A stretch of 64,000 nt of DNA from NCBI RefSeq assembly GCF_022026155.1, contig NZ_CP085041.1, positions 1,024,306-1,088,305 on the forward strand, written 5' to 3'. The DNA is from Dissulfurimicrobium hydrothermale (lineage in GTDB: Bacteria; Desulfobacterota; Dissulfuribacteria; Dissulfuribacterales; Sh68). This document shows positions 21,583 through 43,095 of the stretch, one piece after another (the stretch's first letter is position 1; each line of letters opens with the position of its first letter). The notes below the pieces were generated by a model, which saw only the letters and a list, made by a program, of their open reading frames with translations, was not told the origin of the DNA and searched no databases. The translations under genes and the position numbers were made by a program.

Positions 21583-24009
21583 ATGTCGCTCAGTATCAAC
21601 ACTAACATCGCTGCGCTTTATGCGCACAATAATCTCCAGAAGACAAGTGATTCACTGCAGACGTCACTGGAGAGGCTCTCAACAGGTTTGAGGATAAACA
21701 AATCAGCAGACGATGCGTCAGGTATGTCCATCGCCAATGTCATGCATGCCCAGGCCCTTAGCCTAGGACAGGCCATTAGAAATGCAAATGACGGTATAAG
21801 CGTCGTTCAGATCGCAGATGGCGCGCTTGACGAGGCGGTGCATATCATCAACACCATCAAAACCAAGGCCACGCAGGCCGCGGCAGACAGCCAGACAACC
21901 ACGTCCAGGAATGCCCTCCAGTCCGACATATCGAAGTTGATGGCCGAATTGGACGCCATTGCCAGGACTACATCATTTAACGGCATGAAGCTGCTTACAG
22001 GTAACTTCGCGAACAAGAAGTTCCAGGTAGGCGCCTTCACTGGCGAGACAGTCGAGGTCAACATAGGTTCCAGCGAATCCAACAAGATAGGGCAGGTCGT
22101 GACCGGTCAGCTCCAACTAACGAACGCTTCGGGCGGCAATGTACAGCTCAGTATCCACAGCAATATCCTAAATACAGATGTCGCCATCAACTCGGTGGAT
22201 CTCCAGTACAACAACTCGGCGGCAAACGGCATGCGTGCCTTGGCAGATGCCATCAACAAGGTCTCCGACACCACCGGTATAACCGCTCAGGCTGTTGTAA
22301 AGAGTACCAGTGCAGCCCCTGTGGCCGCCGGTTCCACCGGCAGCGACTTCGCCATAAACGGCATCGTTATCGGTGCTGTAACAGTGCAAGCAAATGATGC
22401 TGACGGCTCCCTTGTAAATGCCATCAATGCAAAGACTGCACAGCACGGCATCGTGGCAAGCGTAGACGGCGCAGGGATGCTTACCCTGAGTTCAACTGAT
22501 GGCAGGGCCATTCAGGTTACAGGTGATACGGGCACGGTCCTTGCCGGAAGCAATATGAGCACGTTCGGTTACATAAAGCTCTTTCAGTCGGGCGCAAATG
22601 ACATGAAGATCACAGACCTTGCGGGTGGTGCGGCGCTTGCTATAACGTCAAATCTTCAGGTCAAAGGCGCCACTACAACGACTATCGACTCAACCCTTAC
22701 AGCAGGATCTGTACTGGGGTCGGCTTCATCGTTCAAAGCCGGGAGCACCTTGGGCTTTACCTTAACAAGTACAAATAATTCAGCTGACATAACAACAACC
22801 CAAGACAGTACCATAAAGGCTGGATCTGTGCTGGCCTCGGCTACCGTGATCAAGCAAGGTTCGGTCCTTGGCGGGACAGTTACCGCAAATGCCGTATCCA
22901 CTACAAACGACAGTACGTTGAAGGCTGGAAGTCTGCTTAAATCAGGTACACTGCTCAAGGCCGGGACGCTCGTCACCACGGCCATCCAGACCGCCGGCGG
23001 CACAATAGCCGCAGGTACCGTATTGAACGCTGATGCAACCTTGACGGCAGACGTCACCCTCCAGGCCGATATGATTGCAAAGGGCGGTTCGTCGTTTGCG
23101 GCGAACAGTTCATTTACGTCTGGTTCATCCATAGGCGGTGACGTCACAACAGCCAGTATCACCAATGTCAATAACGACATGATTTTGAAGGCAGGCTCTA
23201 CTATTAAAAACGCTGCTGGCCTGAGTATAGTTGCAGGTTCCACCATAGGTGGAAACTTTGCATTGGCTGCCACCCAGAGTGCGACGCTTACCTCTTCCAT
23301 GTTGGTAAAGGCAGGTTCAACCCTAACTGATACCTCTAGTATCGCCACCGGCTCAACGCTTGGAGCGAATACGACAGTAAGCAGTGCTCTAACCTTGAAC
23401 GGTGATATGACACTTGCTGCCGGCTCGACCCTTGCCTCCATGTCAACTATGGCTGCAGGTACGGTGCTCACTAATAATATGGTCGTATTCGTATCTGGCA
23501 GTAGTGGCGCAACCAAGACGCTTACAGCGGGTACGGTGCTTGAAAAACAGTACACTACATACGGAACCAACTACCTCAACAACACGATGACCCTGAAGTA
23601 CAATGCAACGTACAACTCGACCATCGCGGCCAATTCCATACTTGCCGCCAACCCAGGTGGTGTATCTGGGACACAGGTGACTGGTATAGTTAAGGAGGCC
23701 TTGAGCGATATAAACGTCACCACCCAGGATGGCGCGCAGCTTGGTATGGCCATAGCCGATTCGGCGCTCCAAAACATAAACGCCATTAAGGCCGGACTTG
23801 GTTCCGTACAGAATCAACTCACCAGCACTATAGCGAACCTGACCGCCACCCAGGTGAACGTACAGTCGGCGGAGAGCCAGATAAGAGATGTGGACTTCGC
23901 AGCTGAGTCTTCAAATTTCTCAAAGATGCAGATACTCTCCCAGGCCGGCACGTTCGCTTTGGCTCAGGCCAATGCAACCGCGCAAGGCGTGCTGAAACTC
24001 CTGCAGTAG
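21583..24009 (+). CDS. fliC: Flagellin with large repetitive surface insert
   Basis: An 808-residue flagellin, much longer than the usual 270-500. The conserved N-terminal D0/D1 region (residues 1-~170, including LERLSTGLRINKSADDASGM) and C-terminal D1/D0 region (residues ~720-808, including ESQIRDVDFAAESSNF) are intact, so it should polymerise and be exported. Between them, residues ~175-350 look like an ordinary D2-type domain. Residues ~366-690 are a Ser/Thr/Gly/Ala-rich run of 6- and 12-residue repeats around the motif L-x-A-G-S-x. No cysteine is seen. AGGAGG lies 6 bases before ATG. The Ser/Thr-rich surface is a natural target for the Maf and pseudaminic acid system further right in the window. 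Confidence 0.95.
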   Translation: MSLSINTNIAALYAHNNLQKTSDSLQTSLERLSTGLRINKSADDASGMSIANVMHAQALSLGQAIRNANDGISVVQIADGALDEAVHIINTIKTKATQAAADSQTTTSRNALQSDISKLMAELDAIARTTSFNGMKLLTGNFANKKFQVGAFTGETVEVNIGSSESNKIGQVVTGQLQLTNASGGNVQLSIHSNILNTDVAINSVDLQYNNSAANGMRALADAINKVSDTTGITAQAVVKSTSAAPVAAGSTGSDFAINGIVIGAVTVQANDADGSLVNAINAKTAQHGIVASVDGAGMLTLSSTDGRAIQVTGDTGTVLAGSNMSTFGYIKLFQSGANDMKITDLAGGAALAITSNLQVKGATTTTIDSTLTAGSVLGSASSFKAGSTLGFTLTSTNNSADITTTQDSTIKAGSVLASATVIKQGSVLGGTVTANAVSTTNDSTLKAGSLLKSGTLLKAGTLVTTAIQTAGGTIAAGTVLNADATLTADVTLQADMIAKGGSSFAANSSFTSGSSIGGDVTTASITNVNNDMILKAGSTIKNAAGLSIVAGSTIGGNFALAATQSATLTSSMLVKAGSTLTDTSSIATGSTLGANTTVSSALTLNGDMTLAAGSTLASMSTMAAGTVLTNNMVVFVSGSSGATKTLTAGTVLEKQYTTYGTNYLNNTMTLKYNATYNSTIAANSILAANPGGVSGTQVTGIVKEALSDINVTTQDGAQLGMAIADSALQNINAIKAGLGSVQNQLTSTIANLTATQVNVQSAESQIRDVDFAAESSNFSKMQILSQAGTFALAQANATAQGVLKLLQ
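22678..23652 (+). repeat. Coding hexapeptide-like repeat region in flagellin
   Basis: The stretch encodes imperfect repeats such as LKAGSLLKSGTLLKAGTL and TIAAGTVL. AGS/AGT motifs recur at 12-residue spacing (for example after residues 374, 412, 448, 577 and 613), and a 6-residue sub-period is visible. Small aliphatic residues occupy one position and Gly-Ser/Thr follow, as in left-handed beta-helix hexapeptide proteins. The DNA copies have diverged, so the period is clearer in protein than in DNA. Confidence 0.7.
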
Positions 24010-28605: not shown

Positions 28606-28968
28606 ATGACTTACCGTGCATCTGTCCTTCGGGTGTCGTCTCACAGACAGACCTATGTGGCTTTTGGAAGAAGGGATATATTGACCGGTCTTGCGGTCAG
28701 GGATCTGAGGTTTTCCTTAAAGGAGATATTGGCCGCCGTTTTCGCCCTTTTTATATTTTCGCTGAGCCTCTGGTCTGGTTATGAGATACGTAGTGTCTCA
28801 AACGACCTTGCCATGCTCGAGAGGGAATCAGCGCAGCTTGACGCCAGATTCAAGACATTGAAAGAGGCTGAAGAGCGGCTTATGGCACCCGAAAGGTTGG
28901 CTCTTGCGGCACAGAGACTTGGACTCCATAAACCGGAAGGCAGTCAGATCGTAAGGTTGGAAGATTAG
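28606..28968 (+). CDS. ftsL: FtsL-like division protein
   Basis: A 120-residue bitopic membrane protein with a basic ~38-residue cytoplasmic tail, one membrane helix (residues ~40-60, AAVFALFIFSLSLW) and a periplasmic leucine-zipper-like coiled coil with family end motif RLGLHKPEGSQIVRLE. FtsL normally pairs with FtsB and helps recruit and activate FtsW-FtsI. Its sequence is poorly conserved; topology, size and position after rsmH support the call. It is retained although its usual partners are altered or missing from the cluster. SD GAGGAG precedes ATG. Confidence 0.8.
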   Translation: MTYRASVLRVSSHRQTYVAFGRRDILTGLAVRDLRFSLKEILAAVFALFIFSLSLWSGYEIRSVSNDLAMLERESAQLDARFKTLKEAEERLMAPERLALAAQRLGLHKPEGSQIVRLED

Positions 28969-29228: not shown

Positions 29229-30836
29229 ATGGCTACCGTCAGAAGAAAAAAAAGAAAACGTCGTACGGTCCTCCCATTGGTTGTGATGGTTTGCGTAGCG
29301 GCCGTGTTGGTAACGGCCTATTTTGTCTGGCCTGTATTGAGCGAGCTCGGCATGGAATGCTTTTTTGCCCCAAAAGGACGCAGAGCAGGGGGTGGCGGTA
29401 TCTATATCGACAGCGGAGCAGAGCGCGGCTGGATCTTTGACAGGAGTGGAGTAGTCCTCGCCGCCAATGCCATGACGATGTCGGCTTATGTAAAACCTGC
29501 TCTTGTTCCGTCAGGGGATGACTGGATTGCGAAGGTTTCGGGCATACTTGGCATCCCTGAAGGCGAGATAAAGGACAGGGTATTTTCCACACGCAACTTT
29601 GTTTGGTTGAAGAGCGGGCTTAGTGAGGCGGAGGTGCAGGGATTGAAGGCCGCCGATATCTCAGGCATAGGCGTCGCCGGGGAATACAGACGTTTTTATC
29701 CTTATGGAGGTCTTGCCGTCCAGATCCTTGGTTTTACTGACCATGATGGAAACGGCCTTGAGGGCGTGGAGGCCTTCTATGACAAGAGACTCGGTGCTAT
29801 GGAGTGTAAAGATCCCGAAGCACCAGGTTGCAGCCTGCATCTTACCATCGAAAGAGGTGTACAGTCCATGGCAGAGGAGGAGCTTGGTTCGGAGCTGACC
29901 AGAATGAAAGGTGAAAAGGGTTGTATGATTGTCATGGGTGTGAATACAGGTCAGATATTGGCCATGGCCGTAAGACCCGTATGGGAGCAGGGAAAATGCT
30001 GGCAAAATGATCAAGATGGGGGCGGATTCAGCAATTATGCAATAAAGGCCGAGGTGGATCCATCGATGTTTTTTGTCTTTGTCAACTGGATTTCCAAAGA
30101 AAGATCCTCGCAGGAACTGCAGGGCGGTTCAGATCAAGGTGGTCAGGTTCAACCGTCTGTGTCGACCGTTCGAACCGAAAGGTTTAATTTGGTCAACATA
30201 AGTGATAAATTCGGCATATTTGGACCATGGACGAGCAACGAGATCAAATCGGTCGGTTTCGACGCCAGTGCGCTTAACGACATGTGGAGACTTGGCTTCG
30301 GACAGCTTACTGGTATTGATCTGCCTGATGAGGAGATGGGGCGCCTGCCGTCGAGTCCTCCGTATTCATGGGACGACCTTTTGCTCCAAGGTATGGCCGC
30401 AAGCCCTGTGCAGATGCTCCGCGCCTTTTGCGCCCTCATAAACGGCGGCAAGCTTGTTTGGCCTCATGTCGCCTTTGAATATGTCGGGAAGGGCCAGAAG
30501 ACCCACCTTGAAAGTGGCATCTTGTCCGGCGGTCGTTCCATACAGTCTGCTGAGGCGTTGGCGTCTGGGTTCAGAGAGAAGCTGGGACGCCTTGACGGCG
30601 ATCCGGTTTTTAGCATCAGGCTACACGACGAGCCTGGCAGCACCAAGGGAATCGCACAGATCGTTGCGCTCGGTTTCTGGCCTGTCGATAATCCTGTTGT
30701 ATGTTATATAGTCGTCCTTGACAATGTGAGGGGGGACCCAGCCATGTATAAAGAGGTCTTTGGAGGTATAAAAAGGGTAGCTATGGCTGCGGCCAAATTG
30801 CCGTTAGAGATGAATATCCAAAAAAATGAGAGATAA
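29229..30836 (+). CDS. FtsI/PBP3-like protein lacking transpeptidase active-site motifs
   Basis: A 535-residue protein in the ftsI position with FtsI/PBP2-like architecture: basic tail, one membrane helix (residues ~13-35), a dimerisation-type region with RGWIFDRSGVVLAAN (residues ~66-80), then the transpeptidase-like domain (from ~200). The catalytic motifs are gone. Where family members read EPGSTFKP, this has DPSMFFVF (residues 277-284), so there is no SxxK; no SxN is visible near 310-330; KTGTAQ is replaced by STKGIAQ (471-477). Structural landmarks such as GFGQLTGIDLP (356-366) remain. The frame is intact with no stops, so it looks like a maintained, probably non-catalytic division protein. 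A 260-base gap (28969-29228) without a gene precedes it; SD is weak. Confidence 0.85.
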   Translation: MATVRRKKRKRRTVLPLVVMVCVAAVLVTAYFVWPVLSELGMECFFAPKGRRAGGGGIYIDSGAERGWIFDRSGVVLAANAMTMSAYVKPALVPSGDDWIAKVSGILGIPEGEIKDRVFSTRNFVWLKSGLSEAEVQGLKAADISGIGVAGEYRRFYPYGGLAVQILGFTDHDGNGLEGVEAFYDKRLGAMECKDPEAPGCSLHLTIERGVQSMAEEELGSELTRMKGEKGCMIVMGVNTGQILAMAVRPVWEQGKCWQNDQDGGGFSNYAIKAEVDPSMFFVFVNWISKERSSQELQGGSDQGGQVQPSVSTVRTERFNLVNISDKFGIFGPWTSNEIKSVGFDASALNDMWRLGFGQLTGIDLPDEEMGRLPSSPPYSWDDLLLQGMAASPVQMLRAFCALINGGKLVWPHVAFEYVGKGQKTHLESGILSGGRSIQSAEALASGFREKLGRLDGDPVFSIRLHDEPGSTKGIAQIVALGFWPVDNPVVCYIVVLDNVRGDPAMYKEVFGGIKRVAMAAAKLPLEMNIQKNER

Positions 30837-33762
30837 AGAGATCTTAGCCATCCTGGACGATGCGGCAGGTGTCACTTGCAATTCGAAAAAGGTGCGGCCT
30901 GGATTTGTATTCGTGGCCATGCCTGGCACAAAGAGAGATGGTTTGAATTTTGTAGCTGATGCAATAAAGAACGGGGCCGGGGTGGTTGTGACTTCCCATG
31001 AGGGTGCCTGTCGATTGAAGGGTCTGAATAGGGGTGGGGTTAAGATATTCGGTGTTGATGATCCAAGGGGTGTATTCGCCAGATTAGCCAGTATTTTTTA
31101 TGGAGAGCCATCCAAACGGCTTATAGTGGTAGGGGTTACAGGAACCAATGGAAAGACTACGGTTACTTATCTTCTGGAGTCGATATTCAGAGAGGCCGAT
31201 CTGAATCCAGGTGTTATAGGGACTATAAGCATGAGATATGCTGGAATGGAGACCGCCTCGGAGCTCACTACGCCCGATTCTGCGGCGATCCAGGCCTGTC
31301 TTGCAGAGATGTTGAGGGGCGGGGTAAAGGCTGTGGCAATGGAGGTCTCTTCCCACGCCATAGACCAGAAGAGGGTAGAAGGGTGTGAGTTTAAGGTGGC
31401 AGTATTTACTAATCTAACACGGGATCACCTGGACTATCACCATGATATGGAGGCCTATTTTCTTACAAAGGCCAGGCTTTTTACCGAATATAAGGTGGGT
31501 CTGTCTGTGATAAACCTGGATGATCCTTATGGATTGAGGCTCTGGGCTATGATCGATGGATCCGGCAACCGGAGGATCAGTTATGGTTTCGACCGTAGTG
31601 CTGATATATGGCCCGAATCTTTTGAATCGAGTCTTGCAGGGCTTAAGGCAAGGATCTCAACCCCCTTTGGTGAAATTGATATCAAATCAAGGCTTATAGG
31701 CAGACATAATCTATCAAATATCCTCGGTGCGATCGGTGCAGCCGCCGGTCTTGGCATTGATCTTAATATTGTCAGACGCGGAATAGAATGTCTTGATAAA
31801 GTCCCAGGGAGGCTTGAGCCGGTGGCCATCCACCAAAGAGACATCACGGCATTGGTTGATTATGCCCATACCCCAGATGCATTGGAGAATGTCTTAAAGA
31901 CCCTGTCCAATCTCGCTATAGGGCGGATCATATGTGTGGTCGGATGCGGAGGTGACAGAGATCAGGGCAAGAGGCCGATTATGGCCAGGATTGCGGCGAG
32001 ATACTCCGATATTGCTGTCTTTACTTCTGACAACCCGCGAGGTGAGGATCCGGCCTTCATATTGAATCAGATGCTTCAGGGTCTGGCGGAGATCCCTGCC
32101 GGAGAGAGAGATGGCTATTCGGCGCATGTGGAGGTTATTCCAGACAGGCGTGAGGCTATTTTTTGGGCGGCTGCCAGAGCCGAGACCGGCGATTGCGTCT
32201 TGGTTGCAGGAAAGGGGCATGAGACATATCAGATCATAGGGGATGAAAGGATTTATTTTGATGACAGAGAGGTCTTGAGGGAGGCCTTCGGGCCACGGAT
32301 TTCTTTGTGTCAGGTTGCAAGCGCTATAGGAGCCGAGGTCGTATATGGCAAGGGATCGAATGGGGTCAGTGTGCAGCTGGAAAAGGTGCTGATCGGTGGT
32401 ATATCCACAGACACGAGATCCATCTTGCCTAAGGATCTATTTTGGGCGTTTAAAGGTGGGCGTTTTGATGGAAGGGACTTTGTGTGTGAGGCAATTAAGA
32501 AAGGTGCCTGTGGTGCGATTGTATCGCATGAAGACATGTCGCTTTTAAAGGACGTTTCGACCGATGCTCCGCTTCTCGCCGTCCATGACGTCCTGAATGC
32601 CTTTGGAGACCTGGCTTCGTGGTACAGGAAGCGCCTTGGACTGGGTGTGTTTGCGATAACTGGGAGCTGCGGTAAGACCACTACAAAGGAGGCCATAGCA
32701 TCTATCTTTCAGAAGAGATGGAGGGTTGTAAAGACAAAGGGCAACTTCAACAACTTGATAGGCCTTCCATTGAGTCTTTTTGAGGCCAGGGAAGGGGACG
32801 ACTGGGCGGTCCTTGAGATGGGTATGAACCGGCCTGGTGAGATTGCAAGACTTGTAGAGATTGCAGGTCCTGATGCGGCGCTCATAACAAACATCAGACC
32901 TGTACACCTCGAAGGGCTCGGCGATCTTGAAGGCGTGGCAAGGGAGAAGGGTGAGGTTTTCAAGGCCTTGGGTAAAGACGGAACGGCCGTCGTCAACCTT
33001 GATGACCCGCTTGTTTTGGAGGTTTCCCGTGCCATCGACTGCAGAAAGGTCTTCTATTCCGTAACGGGTGGGTCAAGAGGGGGGGGTCGCCCAGATGTCT
33101 TTCTAGTCTCGTGGTCGCCTCTGGATGCCGCTTTCTATATCGAGATCGATATCGCAGGTCATTTGGTGAGGTCCGATATCCCGCTCATAGGCACAGCCAA
33201 TGTTCAAAACGTTGTTGCCGCAGCTGCGGCGGCATATGCCATAGGCCTCACAGACGACGAGATAACGGCAGGTCTGCAAGAAATGAAAGGGCTGCATGGG
33301 CGCATGGGGCTTGAAGATCTAGGCTGTGATTTTTATCTGATCGACGATAGCTACAATGCCAATCCAGCATCGATGGCCATGGCCCTTGAGACGCTGTCAG
33401 TTTGGGGCAGGGGTAAAAAGATAGCGATTTTGGGCGATATGCTGGAGCTCGGCAAGAGATCTGTGTCTTTTCATCAGGATCTGGGTAGAAAGGCAGGTCT
33501 TTCAGGGGTTGATCTGCTAGTTTCCATGGGTGAGTTTTCAACCGTCGTTGCAGAGGAGGCAAGGAAGGCCGGGGTTGAGGCGTTTGCCTTTGATGACATG
33601 GATGCATTGATGCATTGGCTTAGCAGTTGTCTTGACCGTAGAGGAGCCGGTATATTTTCATGTCCATGCACCATACTCGTAAAGGGGTCTAGAGGGGTCA
33701 GATGCGATAGGGTCTCTGGGGTTATAAGGGCTGCCTTTGCAAAAGAAAGAGGTGTGTCGTGA
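30826..33762 (+). CDS. Fused MurE-MurF Mur ligase
   Basis: A 978-residue in-frame fusion of two Mur ligases. Residues ~1-490 are MurE, adding diaminopimelate to UDP-MurNAc-L-Ala-D-Glu: ATP loop [11 protein letters not shown] (near residue 101), TTPDS, and the meso-diaminopimelate specificity motif DNPR (near residue 402). Residues ~500-978 are MurF, adding D-Ala-D-Ala: ATP loop [11 protein letters not shown] (near residue 611), M-N-R-P-G-E-I and DDSYNANP (near residue 842). Both halves look active. The start overlaps the ftsI-like gene by 11 bases, and a GTGA overlap leads to mraY. Fusion could channel the tripeptide intermediate. Confidence 0.95.
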
Positions 33763-34849: not shown

Positions 34850-36271
34850 ATGATGGATCTGAGGGGCAAAAAGATAGTGGTTTTGGGGATAGGGGCATCC
34901 GGTGAGGCCGCTGCAAAGTGGGCTGAATCCCGCGGGGCCATGGTGGTTGTAAGTGATCTTAAACCTATTGGGCGTTGGCCATCTGATTTTATCGAATGGG
35001 CAAGGGCAAGAGGGGTGGGCATAGAGGCGGGCAAAAATGATCCCAAGACCTGCCTTTCAGCTGATATGGTTATTGTGAGTCCAGGGATACCGCTTGATGC
35101 CCATGTCGTAAGATCGACGCTGGAGTATGGGATACCCATTACTGGAGAGCTTGCGCTGGCTGTTTCGTTATGGCGTGGGCCATTGATTGCGATTACAGGG
35201 ACAAATGGCAAAACCACTACCACGAGCCTGGTGGGGGAGATGTTTAAGACTGCTGGACTGCCCCATGTTACGGCTGGCAATATTGGGGTGCCGTTATTGG
35301 GTTTTTTGCAACACGATGAATACAATAGCGGCGAGGCGGCTGTTTTGGAGGTCAGTAGTTTTCAGCTTGACGCCTTTTCCTTGAATCGCGGTTGGTTTAG
35401 GCCGCCAAGATTTAATATAGCTGCATTTTTGAACTTGTCGCCCGATCACCTGGATCGTTACCCTGGCCTTGCGGCATACGGGGAAAGCAAGGCGAGTCTG
35501 TTCAAATTCCAGACCGGTTCCGATTGGGCCGTCATGAACGGCGACGACCCCAACCTTTTGCCTTTTAGGGACAGGGGTATGGCAAAGCGGCTCATTTTCG
35601 GTCGTTGCGATCACGGTCTTCACGGGGCGCTGATAAGACGCGAAAGCGGACAAATCATATTAAGGTTGCCCGAATCGATCGGTGGGTCTGATGAGGTCTA
35701 TTCGCTTAAAAATTGGGGGCTTAAGGGTATCCACAATCTTGAGAATCTCGCCGCAGCTATTCTAATCGCAAGGGTGTCTGGTATCGGGCCCGCTGTCGTG
35801 CAGGAGGTTATTTCAACATTCAAGGCCCCGCCCCACAGGATAGAATGGGTAGCTACAAAGAATGGGATAAATTATTATGATGACTCGAAAGGGACGAATG
35901 TTGTCTCTGTGATCAAGGCCATTGAGTCAATAGACGGGCCTGTTGTACTAATAGCCGGCGGAAGGGGTAAGGGCGAAGATTACAGCCCACTTCGCCACTA
36001 TGCAGAGTCGGGTCGGGTCAGCGCCTTTGTGCTTATGGGCGAGGAGGCGTCGGTTATCAAAGATGCCGTGGGCGTGGCCGTTCCTGTATTTGAGATCGTC
36101 GAGACAGACGGATGGCAGGCTATGCGGGAGGCCGTAAGGCTGGCCGCACTCAATGCGGAGGATGGCGGCGCAGTGCTCCTCTCCCCAGCCTGTGCAAGTT
36201 TCGATATGTTTGAAGATTATAGGGAACGCGGGCTTGCCTTTAAAAAGGCGGTTCTTGAGCTCGAGGTATAA
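34850..36271 (+). CDS. murD: UDP-MurNAc-L-alanine--D-glutamate ligase
   Basis: A 473-residue cytoplasmic Mur ligase adding D-Glu. It has an N-terminal UDP-binding Rossmann part (VVLGIGASGEAAAKWAESRG), ATP loop GTNGKTTTTSLV (near residue 118), N-L-S-P-D-H-L-D-R-Y, and DDSKGTNV (near residue 345). Alternative ATG codons at 34850 and 34853 are adjacent. In most relatives ftsW follows; here only 79 bases separate the stop from the murG start. Confidence 0.97.
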   Translation: MMDLRGKKIVVLGIGASGEAAAKWAESRGAMVVVSDLKPIGRWPSDFIEWARARGVGIEAGKNDPKTCLSADMVIVSPGIPLDAHVVRSTLEYGIPITGELALAVSLWRGPLIAITGTNGKTTTTSLVGEMFKTAGLPHVTAGNIGVPLLGFLQHDEYNSGEAAVLEVSSFQLDAFSLNRGWFRPPRFNIAAFLNLSPDHLDRYPGLAAYGESKASLFKFQTGSDWAVMNGDDPNLLPFRDRGMAKRLIFGRCDHGLHGALIRRESGQIILRLPESIGGSDEVYSLKNWGLKGIHNLENLAAAILIARVSGIGPAVVQEVISTFKAPPHRIEWVATKNGINYYDDSKGTNVVSVIKAIESIDGPVVLIAGGRGKGEDYSPLRHYAESGRVSAFVLMGEEASVIKDAVGVAVPVFEIVETDGWQAMREAVRLAALNAEDGGAVLLSPACASFDMFEDYRERGLAFKKAVLELEV

Positions 36272-36350
36272 ATGACACCAGCGATGCGTTGCGGACTATA
36301 AAGGTCTGGCTGGACAGCGGGTCTTTGTGTCGGTCATTGGTGGGGAGTAT

Positions 36351-37466
36351 ATGGAAAGGCAGGTTGATGGGAGGGGTGCTCCTTTGAGGCTTGTTGTAGC
36401 AGGCGGCGGCACAGGCGGTCATGTCTTTCCTGGAATTGCGGTGGTTGAGGCGCTTTCGGAGGTGTCTCCCGTAGAGGTCATGTGGATAGGTGCAGGACGT
36501 CCGGTTGAGAAAGAGGTCTTGAAGGATCGGCCTTGGCGTTATCGTGTGCTTGAAGTTAGGCCCCTTCTTGGAGTAGGCGGGTTCGGCATGGCCAGATCCA
36601 TTTTGGGTCTACCGTATCATATATCAAGGTCATTTGTGTGGCTCAGGGATTTCAGACCCGATATAGTATTCGGTGTAGGAGGCTATGTCTCAGGGCCTGT
36701 ACTGCTGGCTGCAAGGATCTTGGGGATGCCCACCGTACTGCATGAGCAGAATCTGGTACCCGGCCTTGCCAACCGAATTGCAGCTAGATTTGTAAATGCC
36801 GTCCTCTTGAGCTTTGAACAGGCGGAAATGGCTTTTCCGAAGGCCAAGACTGTTGTTACGGGGAACCCTGTCCGTCCATCATTGTTGTTTAATTATAAAG
36901 AAGAGGCAAGGGCGGCTGGTGCTCCTTTGAGGCTTTTGATAATAGGAGGGAGCCAGGGTGCAAGGGGTTTGAACAGGCTTGCAAGTTCAGCCGTTGCGTT
37001 GCTTTCAAAATCAGGCGTCAGGCTTGAGATAATGCACCAGACAGGTCCTGTCGACCTCGAGGCGGTGAGGTCTTTATATGATGAGGTCGGGGTCAAGGCT
37101 GTGGTCTATCCGTTCATAAATGACATGGCCATGGCATATTCATGGGCCGATCTCGTTGTCTGCAGGGCCGGGGCCGGTACTATTGCAGAGCTTACGGCCC
37201 TTGGCAAGCCATCTGTTCTTATTCCCTATCCAGCTGCAGCGGATAGACATCAAGATGCCAATGCAAAGGCGCTTGCGGATGCCGGCGGGGCCATATATTT
37301 TTGTGAAGAAGATATCGGGGCCGTAAAGATGGCCTCGGAGATACAGGCCTTGCTGGAAGATCAAACCAGTCTTAAAAAGATGGCCGAGAAGGCCAAGGAG
37401 ATGGGCAGGCCTGATGCAGCAAAGGCCATAGCCTCGATTCTTGTGGATATGGCGGTTAAAAGATAA
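36351..37466 (+). CDS. murG: MurG N-acetylglucosamine transferase
   Basis: A 371-residue GT28 glycosyltransferase that converts lipid I to lipid II on the inner face of the membrane. The N-terminal Gly-rich loop GGGTGGHVFPGIAV (near residues 17-30) and the C-terminal UDP-GlcNAc site (CRAGAGTIAEL and PYPAAADRHQDANA) are present. ATG 36351, after a G-rich SD, is preferred to an in-frame GTG at 36327. It follows murD directly; ftsW is absent between them. Confidence 0.97.
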   Translation: MERQVDGRGAPLRLVVAGGGTGGHVFPGIAVVEALSEVSPVEVMWIGAGRPVEKEVLKDRPWRYRVLEVRPLLGVGGFGMARSILGLPYHISRSFVWLRDFRPDIVFGVGGYVSGPVLLAARILGMPTVLHEQNLVPGLANRIAARFVNAVLLSFEQAEMAFPKAKTVVTGNPVRPSLLFNYKEEARAAGAPLRLLIIGGSQGARGLNRLASSAVALLSKSGVRLEIMHQTGPVDLEAVRSLYDEVGVKAVVYPFINDMAMAYSWADLVVCRAGAGTIAELTALGKPSVLIPYPAAADRHQDANAKALADAGGAIYFCEEDIGAVKMASEIQALLEDQTSLKKMAEKAKEMGRPDAAKAIASILVDMAVKR

Positions 37467-38876: not shown

Positions 38877-39774
38877 AGATCTTGCAAAAATAGACGGCAT
38901 CGAGCTCTTCAGAGACCTGCCCCTTGCGCCTCTTACCACCTTTCGTATAGGCGGCAGGGCAAAGATCTTCGTGAGGCCGAGGCGGATAGCTGCGCTTGAA
39001 GCGGCGTTGGCCTGTCTTCAAGATAAGGGCGTCGCCTACAAGATACTCGGTCGTGGGAGCAATCTCCTGATCGACGACAAGGGCGTTGAGGCGGTGATTT
39101 CCCTTGCGGCCCTTAATGCATTAAGGGATCTTGTCCCGGATGAAAGTGGCGGGTCCATCCTGACCGTAGAGGCTGGCCACGGGCTTGGCAGACTTATCTC
39201 GTGGACATCAGCCAGGGGGCTTTCTGGCCTTGAGGGTCTCTGCGGCATTCCGGGGAGCGTTGGCGGTGCGGTTAAGATGAATGCAGGGGCCGGGACATGG
39301 TGTATTGCACATATACTCCATTCAGTATGTTTCACAGGACCAGGCGGGAGTTGCTGGGTGTCTGGTGACAGGCTCGAATACGGCTATCGGAGTCTTGAAG
39401 TGCCTAGTGGTGCTGTTGTGTCGATGGTGAGGCTGCGTCTTTTTCAGAAGGAGCGGTCAAGCATCTATTCGGAGATAAGGGCCTTGATGAAAAAGAGGAC
39501 CAAAACCCAGCCCTTAGGAAGGCCTAGTGCAGGGTGTATTTTTAAAAATCCTCCAGGTGATTCGGCTGGGAGGCTGATAGACCTATGCGGACTTAAGGGT
39601 CTTGCGGTGGGAGGCGCAGAGGTTTCGTTCATCCATGCAAACTTTATCATCAACAGGGGTGGCGCAAGTTCTGCTGATGTGATCGGACTCATGGATATCG
39701 TTAAAGACACGGTCAGGTCAATTACAGGTATAGAACTTGCGCCTGAGGTTGCAATTTGGGGTATGAGACAATGA
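38866..39774 (+). CDS. murB: UDP-N-acetylenolpyruvoylglucosamine reductase
   Basis: A 302-residue FAD enzyme (short type II MurB) reducing enolpyruvyl-UDP-GlcNAc. FAD-binding segments FRIGGRAK, LGRGSNLLID and GIPGSVGGAVKMNAGA are present, as is the late catalytic Glu region. In the motif usually written AGSxFKNP the Ser proton donor is replaced by Cys: PSAGCIFKNP (Cys near residue 224). The start is TTG at 38866, set by AAGGAG 7 bases upstream and inside the end of murC. ATGA overlap links it to ftsQ; ddl, often found here, is missing. Confidence 0.95.
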   Translation: MPFRDLAKIDGIELFRDLPLAPLTTFRIGGRAKIFVRPRRIAALEAALACLQDKGVAYKILGRGSNLLIDDKGVEAVISLAALNALRDLVPDESGGSILTVEAGHGLGRLISWTSARGLSGLEGLCGIPGSVGGAVKMNAGAGTWCIAHILHSVCFTGPGGSCWVSGDRLEYGYRSLEVPSGAVVSMVRLRLFQKERSSIYSEIRALMKKRTKTQPLGRPSAGCIFKNPPGDSAGRLIDLCGLKGLAVGGAEVSFIHANFIINRGGASSADVIGLMDIVKDTVRSITGIELAPEVAIWGMRQ

Positions 39775-40598
39775 ATGTCAGGACTTCTTACAGGGGTGGC
39801 AAGGGCATACATCAAAGGCTGGCTGATAGAAAGATCCACGGGGTATCGATCTTTTTTAAGACTAACTTCCTGCTGTTAAAAAGATCTTTTTTTATCTTTT
39901 TGGTATTGGCGGTCGGTTATGGTTCATGGCATTGGATGTGTCATAGCCGGTATTTTTGTCTAAATAAGATACTGGTTGAGGGTGGACCGCACATGAGCCA
40001 TGAAGATCTTCTCAGACTGACTGGCCTAACCTCCAGGACCAATATCTTGGCCGTCAATTTGGATTCAATCAAAAGCGCTATAGAAAGGTATCCTTGGGTC
40101 AAGAAGGCAGAGGTCAGGCGCAGGCTGCCTGACCGGCTGATTATTATGATTAAGGAGCGTGTTCCGGTTGCCGCTATGGAATCAGGCGGTAAGATGTATC
40201 TAGTGGACGGTACCGGGGCCGTTTTCAAAGAGGCTGCGCCAGCAGAGGTCGGATCTCTGCCTGTGATAACCGGCGCTGATCATATGGATGCCAAGAGGGG
40301 CATCCTTTCAGGGTTTGCAATGAAGGCCTCGGAGCTCATAACAATGGCTGGACAAGGTACGAGGACCTTGGGTGCTGGCAACATCAAGAAGATAATAATT
40401 ACAAACAACGGTGATCTAATGCTCTATACGGTGGATCACGATACCCTCATTCATTTTAAGGCACATAACATCAAGACACAATTTGCAAGGGCTGAAAAGA
40501 TACTTTTCCAGCTTTATAGATCTGGCAAATATGAAAGGGTCGCAAGTATTGACCTTGATTACGGCCAGGATATGGCAGTGGCAAGACTTAAAGACTAG
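39771..40598 (+). CDS. ftsQ: Cell division protein FtsQ
   Basis: A 275-residue bitopic membrane protein. A basic cytoplasmic tail and one membrane helix (residues ~38-58) lead to a periplasmic POTRA domain (residues ~65-130, KILVEGG...ERYPWVKKAEVRRRLPDRL) and the FtsQ/DivIB beta domain. It bridges early and late divisome parts through FtsB-FtsL. ATG 39771 overlaps the murB stop (ATGA); an in-frame TTG at 39756 is less likely. Confidence 0.92.
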   Translation: MNVRTSYRGGKGIHQRLADRKIHGVSIFFKTNFLLLKRSFFIFLVLAVGYGSWHWMCHSRYFCLNKILVEGGPHMSHEDLLRLTGLTSRTNILAVNLDSIKSAIERYPWVKKAEVRRRLPDRLIIMIKERVPVAAMESGGKMYLVDGTGAVFKEAAPAEVGSLPVITGADHMDAKRGILSGFAMKASELITMAGQGTRTLGAGNIKKIIITNNGDLMLYTVDHDTLIHFKAHNIKTQFARAEKILFQLYRSGKYERVASIDLDYGQDMAVARLKD

Positions 40599-40606
40599 GA
40601 GACCAA

Positions 40607-41830
40607 ATGGCCGAAAGACCTTGTGATATATTGGTTGGCCTTGATATCGGCACTACGAAGATATGCGCTGTGGTAGGAGAGGTCAGAGAGGATGGCATAG
40701 AGATAATCGGGGTGGGCTTTCATCCATCAATCGGCCTTAAAAAAGGTGTGGTAATAAATGTGGAAAGTACGGTGAAGTCCATAAGAAAAGCGGTTGAAGA
40801 CGCAGAGCGTATGGCCGGGATGGAGATAGATTCCGTTTGTATAGGCATAGCAGGTAGCCACATAAAAGGTATTAACAGCCATGGTGTAATAGCCATAAAG
40901 GGCCAGGAAGTCAGTCAGGAAGATATAGAAAGGGTCCTAGATGCGGCAAAGGCGGTTGCCATCCCGCTTGACAGGGATATACTTCATGTGCTTCCCCAGG
41001 AATATATTGTGGATGATCAGGGCGGTATCATGGATCCTGTGGGCATGACAGGCGTGAGGCTTGAGGCTAGGGTACACATAGTCACAGGGGCTGTAACGGC
41101 CGTCCAGAACCTTGTTAAGTGCACCAACCGGGCAGGTCTTGATGTATCGGATATAGTTCTTCAACCCCTGGCCTCTGCCTCAGCTGTGCTTACACAGGAG
41201 GAAAAGGATCTCGGGGTTGGGCTTATTGATTTTGGTGGAGGTACTACTGACGTGGCGTTGTTCGTCGATGGTACCATCAGACATTCTTCCATCCTTGGGC
41301 TTGGCGGCAATAATCTTACCAATGACATTGCCGTCGGCCTCAAGACGCCGATGGCCGACGCTGAGAAGATCAAGGTCCTTCACGGTTGCTGTTTGAGTTC
41401 GTTAGTATCTAGAGATGAAAATATAGAGGTTCCGAGTGTCGGCGGACGTAAGCCAAGACTCCTTTCCAGACAGGTGCTCGCTGAGATACTTGAGCCCCGT
41501 GTCGAAGAGATATTCGGCCTACTGGATCAGGAAATCCAACGCACCGGGCTAAAGGATTCATTGACTTCGGGGCTGGTGATTACAGGCGGTTCAGCCTTGG
41601 TGGCCGGACTCAGCGAGATGGCAGATCAGATTTTCCAGCTACCCACTAGGATCGGCTATCCGAGGCGCATATCGGGTCTGGTTGATATGGTTAATTCACC
41701 GATGTTTGCGACAGCTGTAGGTCTTGTGCTCTATGAGTTGGACAACAAGCCAGACAAGAAGTTCCACATAAGGGACGGCAATATCTTCAATAGGGTAACC
41801 GGACGTATGAGGTCATGGTTCAAGATTTAA
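40607..41830 (+). CDS. ftsA: Cell division protein FtsA
   Basis: A 407-residue actin-like protein that ties FtsZ to the membrane. The phosphate-1 motif GLDIGTTKICAVVGE (residues ~9-23), the 1C subdomain, phosphate-2 LIDFGGGTTDVALF (near residue 206) and adenosine motif ITGGSALVAGL are present. The C-terminal amphipathic membrane helix is visible as NRVTGRMRSWFKI. SD AGGAG precedes ATG. Normal length and position before ftsZ. Confidence 0.97.
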   Translation: MAERPCDILVGLDIGTTKICAVVGEVREDGIEIIGVGFHPSIGLKKGVVINVESTVKSIRKAVEDAERMAGMEIDSVCIGIAGSHIKGINSHGVIAIKGQEVSQEDIERVLDAAKAVAIPLDRDILHVLPQEYIVDDQGGIMDPVGMTGVRLEARVHIVTGAVTAVQNLVKCTNRAGLDVSDIVLQPLASASAVLTQEEKDLGVGLIDFGGGTTDVALFVDGTIRHSSILGLGGNNLTNDIAVGLKTPMADAEKIKVLHGCCLSSLVSRDENIEVPSVGGRKPRLLSRQVLAEILEPRVEEIFGLLDQEIQRTGLKDSLTSGLVITGGSALVAGLSEMADQIFQLPTRIGYPRRISGLVDMVNSPMFATAVGLVLYELDNKPDKKFHIRDGNIFNRVTGRMRSWFKI

Positions 41831-41907: not shown

Positions 41908-43095
41908 ATGGCTTTTGAATTTGTTGATATGGAACATACCGCTAAGATCAAGGTAGTGGGGGTCGGCGGCGGAGGCGGTAATGCCGTTAACAATATGATA
42001 GCATCTGAGTTGAAAGGCGTAGAGTTTATAGCAGCCAACACCGACAGTCAGGCCCTTGAGATGTCCAGGGCTGGGATAAAGATACAGCTCGGCAAGAATT
42101 TGACAAAAGGGTTGGGTGCCGGGGCTAAGCCTGAGATCGGCAGGGACGCAGCTGAAGAGAGTATAGACGAGATAAGGGCTGCACTTGAAGGAAGTGACAT
42201 GGTCTTTATCACTGCCGGCATGGGCGGCGGTACCGGTACAGGGGCCGCTCCGGTCATAGCAGAAGTTAGCAAGGAGGTCGGGGCACTCACGGTCGGGGTG
42301 GTTACAAAACCCTTTAGCTTTGAAGGCAAACGCCGCATGAAGCAGGCGGAGGAGGGGCTTGAGCGCCTAAGGGGCGTTGTTGATACCATAATCACCATTC
42401 CAAACGATAGGTTAAGGCGTTTGGCGCAACCAAATACATTGTTGAAGGAATTGTTCGCCAAGGCTGATGATGTCCTCTATTATGCGGTGAGGGGTATTTC
42501 AGATCTTATAGTGGTCCAGGGCTATATAAATGTTGATTTTGCGGATGTGCGCACTGTAATGGCCGAGATGGGTATGGCGTTGATGGGCACGGGCGTGGCT
42601 AGGGGGGAGAGGAGGGCTATGGAGGCGGTCCAGATGGCCATAGCAAACCCGCTCCTTGAAGACATCTCGATCAGCGGCGCCCGTGGGATACTCATGAACA
42701 TAACGGCTAGCAGCGAGACCCTTAGTATGGAAGAGGTGGATCAGGCGTCAACGATGATTCATGATGAGGCCCATGAAGATGCCAATATTATATGGGGTGC
42801 CGTATTTGACGATGACGCCGGGGATGAGATCAGGGTTACAGTGATTGCGACAGGTATCGGTGCCGATTCCGTCGGCGAGGAAACAATCGTCACACCCATA
42901 ACAGATCTCGTCAGAAAAAGGCAGGATTCAGGCAGAGATGAGCAGGATCAGGTGGTGCAAACCGCCTATCGCGATAGGCAGCGCGCCGGGAATACGAAAA
43001 GGCCTGAAAAGCAAGGCCTTGTTCACAGAGGGTTTGATGAGATAGACTGGAACAGATATGAGATCCCGACTTTTATACGCAAAAAGGCTGATTGA
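41908..43095 (+). CDS. ftsZ: Cell division GTPase FtsZ
   Basis: A 395-residue tubulin homologue that forms the division ring. The N-terminal GTP-binding part has [14 protein letters not shown] and the tubulin signature [10 protein letters not shown] (near residue 109). The T7 synergy loop Asn-Val-Asp-Phe-Ala-Asp is near residue 209. A variable linker (residues ~330-380) leads to the conserved tail [12 protein letters not shown], which binds FtsA and other partners. SD GAGGGGG precedes ATG. It ends the dcw cluster. Confidence 0.98.

Follow-up and report, generated by a model that had tools for sequence, protein, structure and literature searches.

The window, by which we mean the whole stretch of 64,000 nucleotides analysed (G+C, 49.7%), comes from Dissulfurimicrobium hydrothermale Sh68. 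This sulfur disproportionator, a short rod, belongs to the class Dissulfuribacteria of the Desulfobacterota; its published G+C content is 49.66% (PMC8780430), and its complete genome consists of a single contig of 2,025,450 bp. The window carries a complete-looking dcw cluster in the order mraZ-rsmH-ftsL-ftsI-murEF-mraY-murD-murG-murC-murB-ftsQ-ftsA-ftsZ, the relevant features of which are the following:

28606..28968, + strand: ftsL (weak matches to NCBIfam FtsL models; position)
29229..30836, + strand: FtsI orthologue of 535 aa (P0001), predicted to be transpeptidase-dead (Pfam PBP_dimer, 49.7 bits; partial Transpeptidase, 38.9 bits; AF2 model)
29262..29336, + strand: N-terminal membrane helix of FtsI, approximately residues 12-36 (AF2 helix 3-39; hydrophobic stretch)
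29415..29828, + strand: pedestal or PBP_dimer domain of FtsI, approximately residues 63-200 (Pfam PF03717 at 63-171; RGxIxDRxG and RxYP...GxEGxE boxes conserved)
29829..30809, + strand: transpeptidase-fold domain of FtsI without catalytic motifs, approximately residues 201-527 (Pfam, AF2, structure and profile comparison)
30060..30077, + strand: SxxK position of FtsI, P278-S-M280-F-F-V283, with Met at the nucleophile and Val at the general-base position (alignments)
30294..30326, + strand: conserved FtsI landmark GFGQLTGIDLP (alignment)
30606..30638, + strand: KTG-strand position of FtsI, VFSIRLHDEPG, residues 460-470 (alignments)
30826..33762, + strand: murE-murF fusion, 978 aa (ORF, synteny)
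34850..36271, + strand: murD, on the upstream side of the missing ftsW (ORF, synteny)
36272..36326, + strand: murD-murG junction of 55 bp, the expected ftsW site, too small for any gene (ORF, synteny)
36327..37466, + strand: murG (ORF, synteny)
39756..40598, + strand: ftsQ (NCBIfam FtsQ, 54.4 bits)
40607..41830, + strand: ftsA (ORF sequence; synteny)
41908..43095, + strand: ftsZ (ORF sequence; synteny)

The murE-murF fusion is shared with most of the class and with families f22 and f100, murE and murF being two genes elsewhere. The window also holds a flagellin-like ORF of 808 aa (21583-24009) with a long repetitive middle rich in AGS-L repeats.

Structure and active site of the FtsI protein

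The ftsI ORF is intact over 535 codons and lies between ftsL and the murE-murF fusion. A preliminary description of this DNA had noted that the FtsI topology and dcw position are kept, which our analysis bears out, and had called the protein a paralogue, which it is not, since it sits at the FtsI locus itself and is the orthologue. Like canonical FtsI/PBP3, exemplified by the P. aeruginosa protein, it combines the dcw position with one transmembrane helix, a pedestal, a transpeptidase fold and the GFGxxTGIDLPGE landmark, the conservation of which had been pointed out earlier. Pfam recognizes PBP_dimer at residues 63-171 and Transpeptidase only as a fragment at residues 353-420. The AF2 model (pLDDT, 80.4; pTM, 0.78) matched SpoVD with a Z score of 34.7, P. 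aeruginosa PBP3 with 33.5 and FtsI within FtsWIQBL with 32.1, and the comparison with solved PBP3, PBP2 and SpoVD (Z, 31 to 35 across 332 to 420 residues) confirmed the penicillin-binding transpeptidase fold. Among class B PBP features, the Sh68 protein thus keeps the ftsL-murE slot, the N-terminal helix, the pedestal and the fold, and differs from canonical FtsI in missing all three catalytic motifs (SxxK, SxN and KTG) as well as a cognate FtsW partner.

The SxxK site was placed by MAFFT alignment with 20 PBP2 sequences, by HH-suite comparison with 13 canonical FtsI (E, 2.8e-80) and by HMM comparison with solved PBP3, and it is hydrophobic in all three. The MAFFT and HH-suite alignments agree that Ser279 takes the place of the Gly before the nucleophile, Met280 that of the nucleophile and Val283 that of the Lys; the loss of SxxK reported earlier therefore stands, while the reading of the site as SMFF was one residue out of register. 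Similarly, KTG is lost as described, but STKG-I-A-Q (residues 471-477), previously taken for the KTG site, probably lies after the KTG strand; VFSIRLHDEPG probably aligns there instead and also lacks KTG. The absence of SxN was confirmed. A motif set displaced elsewhere in the protein, named beforehand as the observation that would speak against the loss, was searched for and rejected: by regular expression, S..K and S.N have zero matches anywhere in P0001, and [KHR][TS]G matches in the pedestal domain only, at RSG72 and KSG128. By alignment and predicted structure, the Sh68 dcw protein is an FtsI fold without the FtsI active site.

Related proteins in this state, termed pseudo-FtsI, show the same pattern. 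An 18-sequence alignment contains no invariant Ser, Cys, Lys or His. At the nucleophile position, pseudo-FtsI has V, P, I, L, M, G, A or F, and S just once. Loose motif matches in 14 other pseudo-sequences are scattered, those to SxxK mostly outside the usual protein region, and in the family alignment they do not occupy the catalytic columns. Most pseudo-FtsI relatives outside family f1 carry a C-terminal PASTA domain, another feature in common with canonical FtsI/PBP3.

Remaining wall-synthesis and division proteins

FtsW was not found in the Sh68 genome, in which the SEDS model PF01098 detected RodA alone, although a strongly degenerate FtsW could escape detection; its loss is a point that the preliminary description had not raised. 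The lone SEDS scores over the cut-off of the RodA model (438 bits) and under that of the FtsW model, and its gene adjoins an intact PBP2 in the order mreB-mreC-mreD-PBP2-rodA, so that MreBCD is present. A tree built from 57 SEDS proteins places all 27 lone SEDS with RodA (SH-aLRT, 98). PF00905 matches in the genome are PBP2, PBP1a, the dcw FtsI and one D-Ala-D-Ala carboxypeptidase. The search for another intact class B PBP, proposed earlier, thus returned PBP2 beside RodA, and a second intact FtsI was rejected. PBP1a is the single intact bifunctional class A PBP, and with PBP2 it makes up the other D,D-transpeptidases; three YkuD L,D-transpeptidases are also encoded. Within the class, PBP2 retains SxxK and SxC/D in all 20 sequences checked and KTG in 19, with KTA in the remaining one. 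The genome also encodes FtsB, RlpA and an FtsN-like membrane protein with a SPOR domain. The FtsN-like protein (L217:787-1743:+), made of a membrane helix, a long linker and a SPOR domain, is encoded directly downstream of an argS-like ORF.

Distribution in Desulfobacterota

Of the 46 genomes of the class, 45 have a single SEDS and one, a draft, has none. In those with retrieved loci, the dcw stretch read contains no ftsW, and PBP2, wherever it was recognized in the stretch, lies next to the lone SEDS. The catalytic motifs are missing from 37/37 dcw FtsI sequences examined in the class. Among 394 genomes of the phylum, most have two SEDS and several families have one. From the dcw and SEDS loci of about 60 phylum genomes, we found an apparently dead FtsI in all 35 sampled genomes without dcw ftsW, which belong to ten further families (f22, f25, f32, f36, f60, f68, f69, f78, f92 and f100) including Desulfobulbaceae, and FtsI with SxxK and KTGT motifs in all 15 genomes with dcw ftsW. 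The presence of FtsW and the motif state of FtsI therefore match in nearly all sampled genomes of the phylum. The sole exception is a one-contig genome (G233; L116, L157) in which dcw FtsI and RodA-PBP2 are intact and FtsW was not found. A scan of GTDB contigs added 47 Desulfobulbia-type loci, all without the motifs; three loci of Cloacimonadota and Neomarinimicrobiota from the same scan keep all of them.

A mirror case occurs in four genomes (G060, G248, G382 and G107), where RodA was lost instead and FtsI is intact; at the loci L153, L154, L155 and L156, the lone SEDS is the dcw FtsW, RodA was not found and FtsI is fully intact. In family f22, RodA is frameshifted in a complete genome (G056; L221:5656-6788:+) and a draft that is 99% complete and carries pseudo-FtsI (G144) has zero detectable SEDS, making a further loss possible in these two genomes.

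Selection on the FtsI gene

Pairwise dN/dS of FtsI among close relatives ranges from 0.23 to 0.40. For one genome pair (G002-G012), the values are 0.25 for FtsI, 0.25 for murG, 0.23 for murD, 0.23 for ftsQ, 0.10 for PBP2 and 0.08 for RodA. FtsI is thus on par with the neighbouring mur genes and is not decaying, as the intact frame had led the preliminary description to propose. In this same single pair, the dead transpeptidase-like part has a dN/dS of 0.19 and the pedestal one of 0.46. Furthermore, about 65 residues of the pedestal are deleted from pseudo-FtsI of several f9-family genomes (L055, L056, L059, L046 and L051), and the domain is missing in families f32 and f60. With the pedestal less constrained, trimmed or lost, the conserved role of the protein seems, on sequence grounds, to reside in the transpeptidase-fold part, and activation of a SEDS partner through the pedestal cannot be its universal role.

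Two probable origins

A first tree of five dcw genes left deep nodes unresolved, and eight genes performed better. In the eight-gene tree of 37 genomes, 23 pseudo-FtsI genomes form one group (SH-aLRT, 97) separate from f32/f60, and the well-supported branches require at least two changes, which implies two independent losses of active FtsI in Desulfobacterota, a number that is provisional since the tree was a quick search without bootstrap.

In f32/f60, FtsI has shrunk to 248 to 345 aa, comprising the membrane helix, a remnant of the transpeptidase domain (hhalign probability, 97%; E, 6e-11) and a PASTA domain, with no pedestal. The ftsW position in all seven aligned f32/f60 genomes is occupied by a ten-helix protein of about 262 aa without informative Pfam match (for example, L091:5692-6483:-, L093:8306-9094:+ and L082:6085-6879:-). 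Its model (pLDDT, 84) has the SEDS fold, with a Z score of 19.5 to FtsW 8p1u_A over 257 of 263 residues against 12.9 for the best non-SEDS match, WaaL; profile comparison with FtsW did not reveal homology (probability, 4.6%). Both the YGG motif and the TD[F/L/S/A] motif with the catalytic ECL4 Asp, which is D297 in the TDF motif of E. coli FtsW (PMC8765783), are absent from 7/7 of these proteins. The protein is therefore a probable pseudo-FtsW standing beside a shrunken pseudo-FtsI; judging from the SEDS fold without its catalytic loop and the remnant FtsI, this lineage appears to have retained the two halves of its septal synthase as dead proteins. Two f60 genomes, G213 (L138) and G321 (C91:2009-2971), encode a second, very divergent SEDS, the L138 copy of which adjoins a PBP2-like protein.

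Discussion

FtsW and the catalytic centre of FtsI have been lost, while FtsL, FtsB, FtsQ, FtsA, FtsZ and the FtsI fold have been kept. We propose, with a probability of about 0.75, that the FtsI orthologue is a pseudoenzyme, a putative membrane-anchored, noncatalytic divisome scaffold that would be unable to cross-link peptidoglycan. The earlier suggestion that a noncatalytic FtsI is kept as a structural or regulatory part of the divisome is supported by the class-wide motif loss, by the dN/dS range and by the loss of FtsW. With FtsI apparently dead and FtsW missing, yet FtsI under selection, the division wall must come from other enzymes; septal cross-linking by another enzyme, also raised earlier, gains support from the intact PBP2 and PBP1a encoded elsewhere in the genome.

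From the co-occurrence of the two losses, we infer that, once FtsW disappeared, FtsI would have had no glycan strands left to cross-link and its active site would have been free to drift. The FtsQLB-FtsI assembly would still form at the Z ring and would bring in a peptidoglycan synthase with its own transpeptidase, presumably RodA-PBP2 or PBP1a. We tentatively and slightly favour RodA-PBP2, since the genome encodes no other SEDS-class B pair, some probability being left to both or to another enzyme. A precedent exists in Bacillus subtilis, where catalytically dead PBP2B (S309A) supports division when PBP3 supplies the activity (PMC5656894), so that a division class B PBP is structural and another PBP active, as we propose here; there it is a laboratory mutant, whereas here it would be a natural, clade-wide state.

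Somewhat less probable, though a serious contender, is that the dead FtsI serves as a scaffold while the septum is made by the single class A PBP1a under the direct control of FtsQLB and the FtsN-like protein. The intact bifunctional enzyme is available for this, PBP1b is a direct target of regulation by FtsBLQ and FtsN in vitro (PMC6325244), and FtsW, PBP3 and PBP1b copurify (PMC5324115). Moreover, the G144 and G056 genomes, with no intact SEDS detected, favour PBP1a in those organisms; against it as the general solution stands the conservation of RodA-PBP2 almost throughout the clade. Vegetative Clostridioides difficile employs a class A PBP for division, keeps FtsQLB homologues and divides independently of the dcw SEDS and class B PBP (PMC10693644), an independence that we infer for Sh68. 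The C. difficile dcw pair SpoVE/SpoVD, however, has sporulation-specific roles in peptidoglycan synthesis, whereas in Sh68 a dcw pair of this kind does not exist, FtsI being apparently dead and the dcw SEDS absent.

That FtsI is an active transpeptidase through other residues, or a ligand sensor still binding stem peptides, appears improbable. The retained and constrained fold would suit such a role, as would the PASTA domain of most relatives, PASTA being a domain type able to bind peptidoglycan, but the alignment offers no invariant Ser, Cys, Lys or His and the nucleophile column is almost devoid of Ser. Even harder to sustain is the view of the gene as a decaying relic without function: the stepwise shrinkage among families from 715 aa to 248 aa could be read in this way, yet the frame is intact in every genome checked, the slot between ftsL and murE is constant, and the dN/dS values point to constraint, strongest in the transpeptidase-like part. 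A sequencing or assembly error can be dismissed, given that the same state recurs in 37 genomes of the class, in 35 others and at 47 named loci, and that the Sh68 assembly combines short and long reads at 131x (PMC8780430).

Extending the scaffold reading to both Desulfobacterota lineages, it is conceivable, if rather speculative, that FtsWI became a noncatalytic platform (pseudo-FtsI alone, or pseudo-FtsW with pseudo-FtsI) and that a single RodA-PBP2 pair serves elongation and division. If true, free-living rod-shaped bacteria would break the rule that each process has one SEDS-PBP pair of its own. In the C. difficile study, FtsW and FtsI are called universally essential for making the septal wall (PMC10693644). 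In the open-access literature, to which our search was confined with subscription papers outside its scope, we found no report of a natural inactive or pseudoenzyme FtsI.

What was already known is the absence of FtsW from Desulfobulbaceae. A division survey of Desulfobulbaceae and cable bacteria, in its available sections, reports ftsW and ftsN to be absent from four Desulfobulbaceae genomes, lists FtsI as recruited and assigns septal synthesis to FtsI activity as in E. coli (PMC7873302); those sections do not mention a loss of catalytic residues in FtsI. The model of cable bacterium division built there on an active FtsI would need correction, as would the annotation of genes at the pseudo-FtsI locus, currently read as active FtsI. 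The clade would offer a natural test of the roles of FtsI beyond cross-linking and of septum formation by RodA-PBP2 or class A PBPs. In these bacteria, most of them free-living and among them the cultured Desulfobulbus, Desulfogranum and Desulfurivibrio, evolution appears to have split the structure of FtsI from its catalysis and kept the structure alone. Pseudo-FtsI loci with named hosts include those of Desulfobulbus elongatus DSM 2908 (L191), Desulfogranum mediterraneum DSM 13871 (L213), Desulfurivibrio sp. AMeS2 (L164), Desulforhopalus sp. (L208) and a MAG labelled Desulfocapsa sulfexigens (L184).
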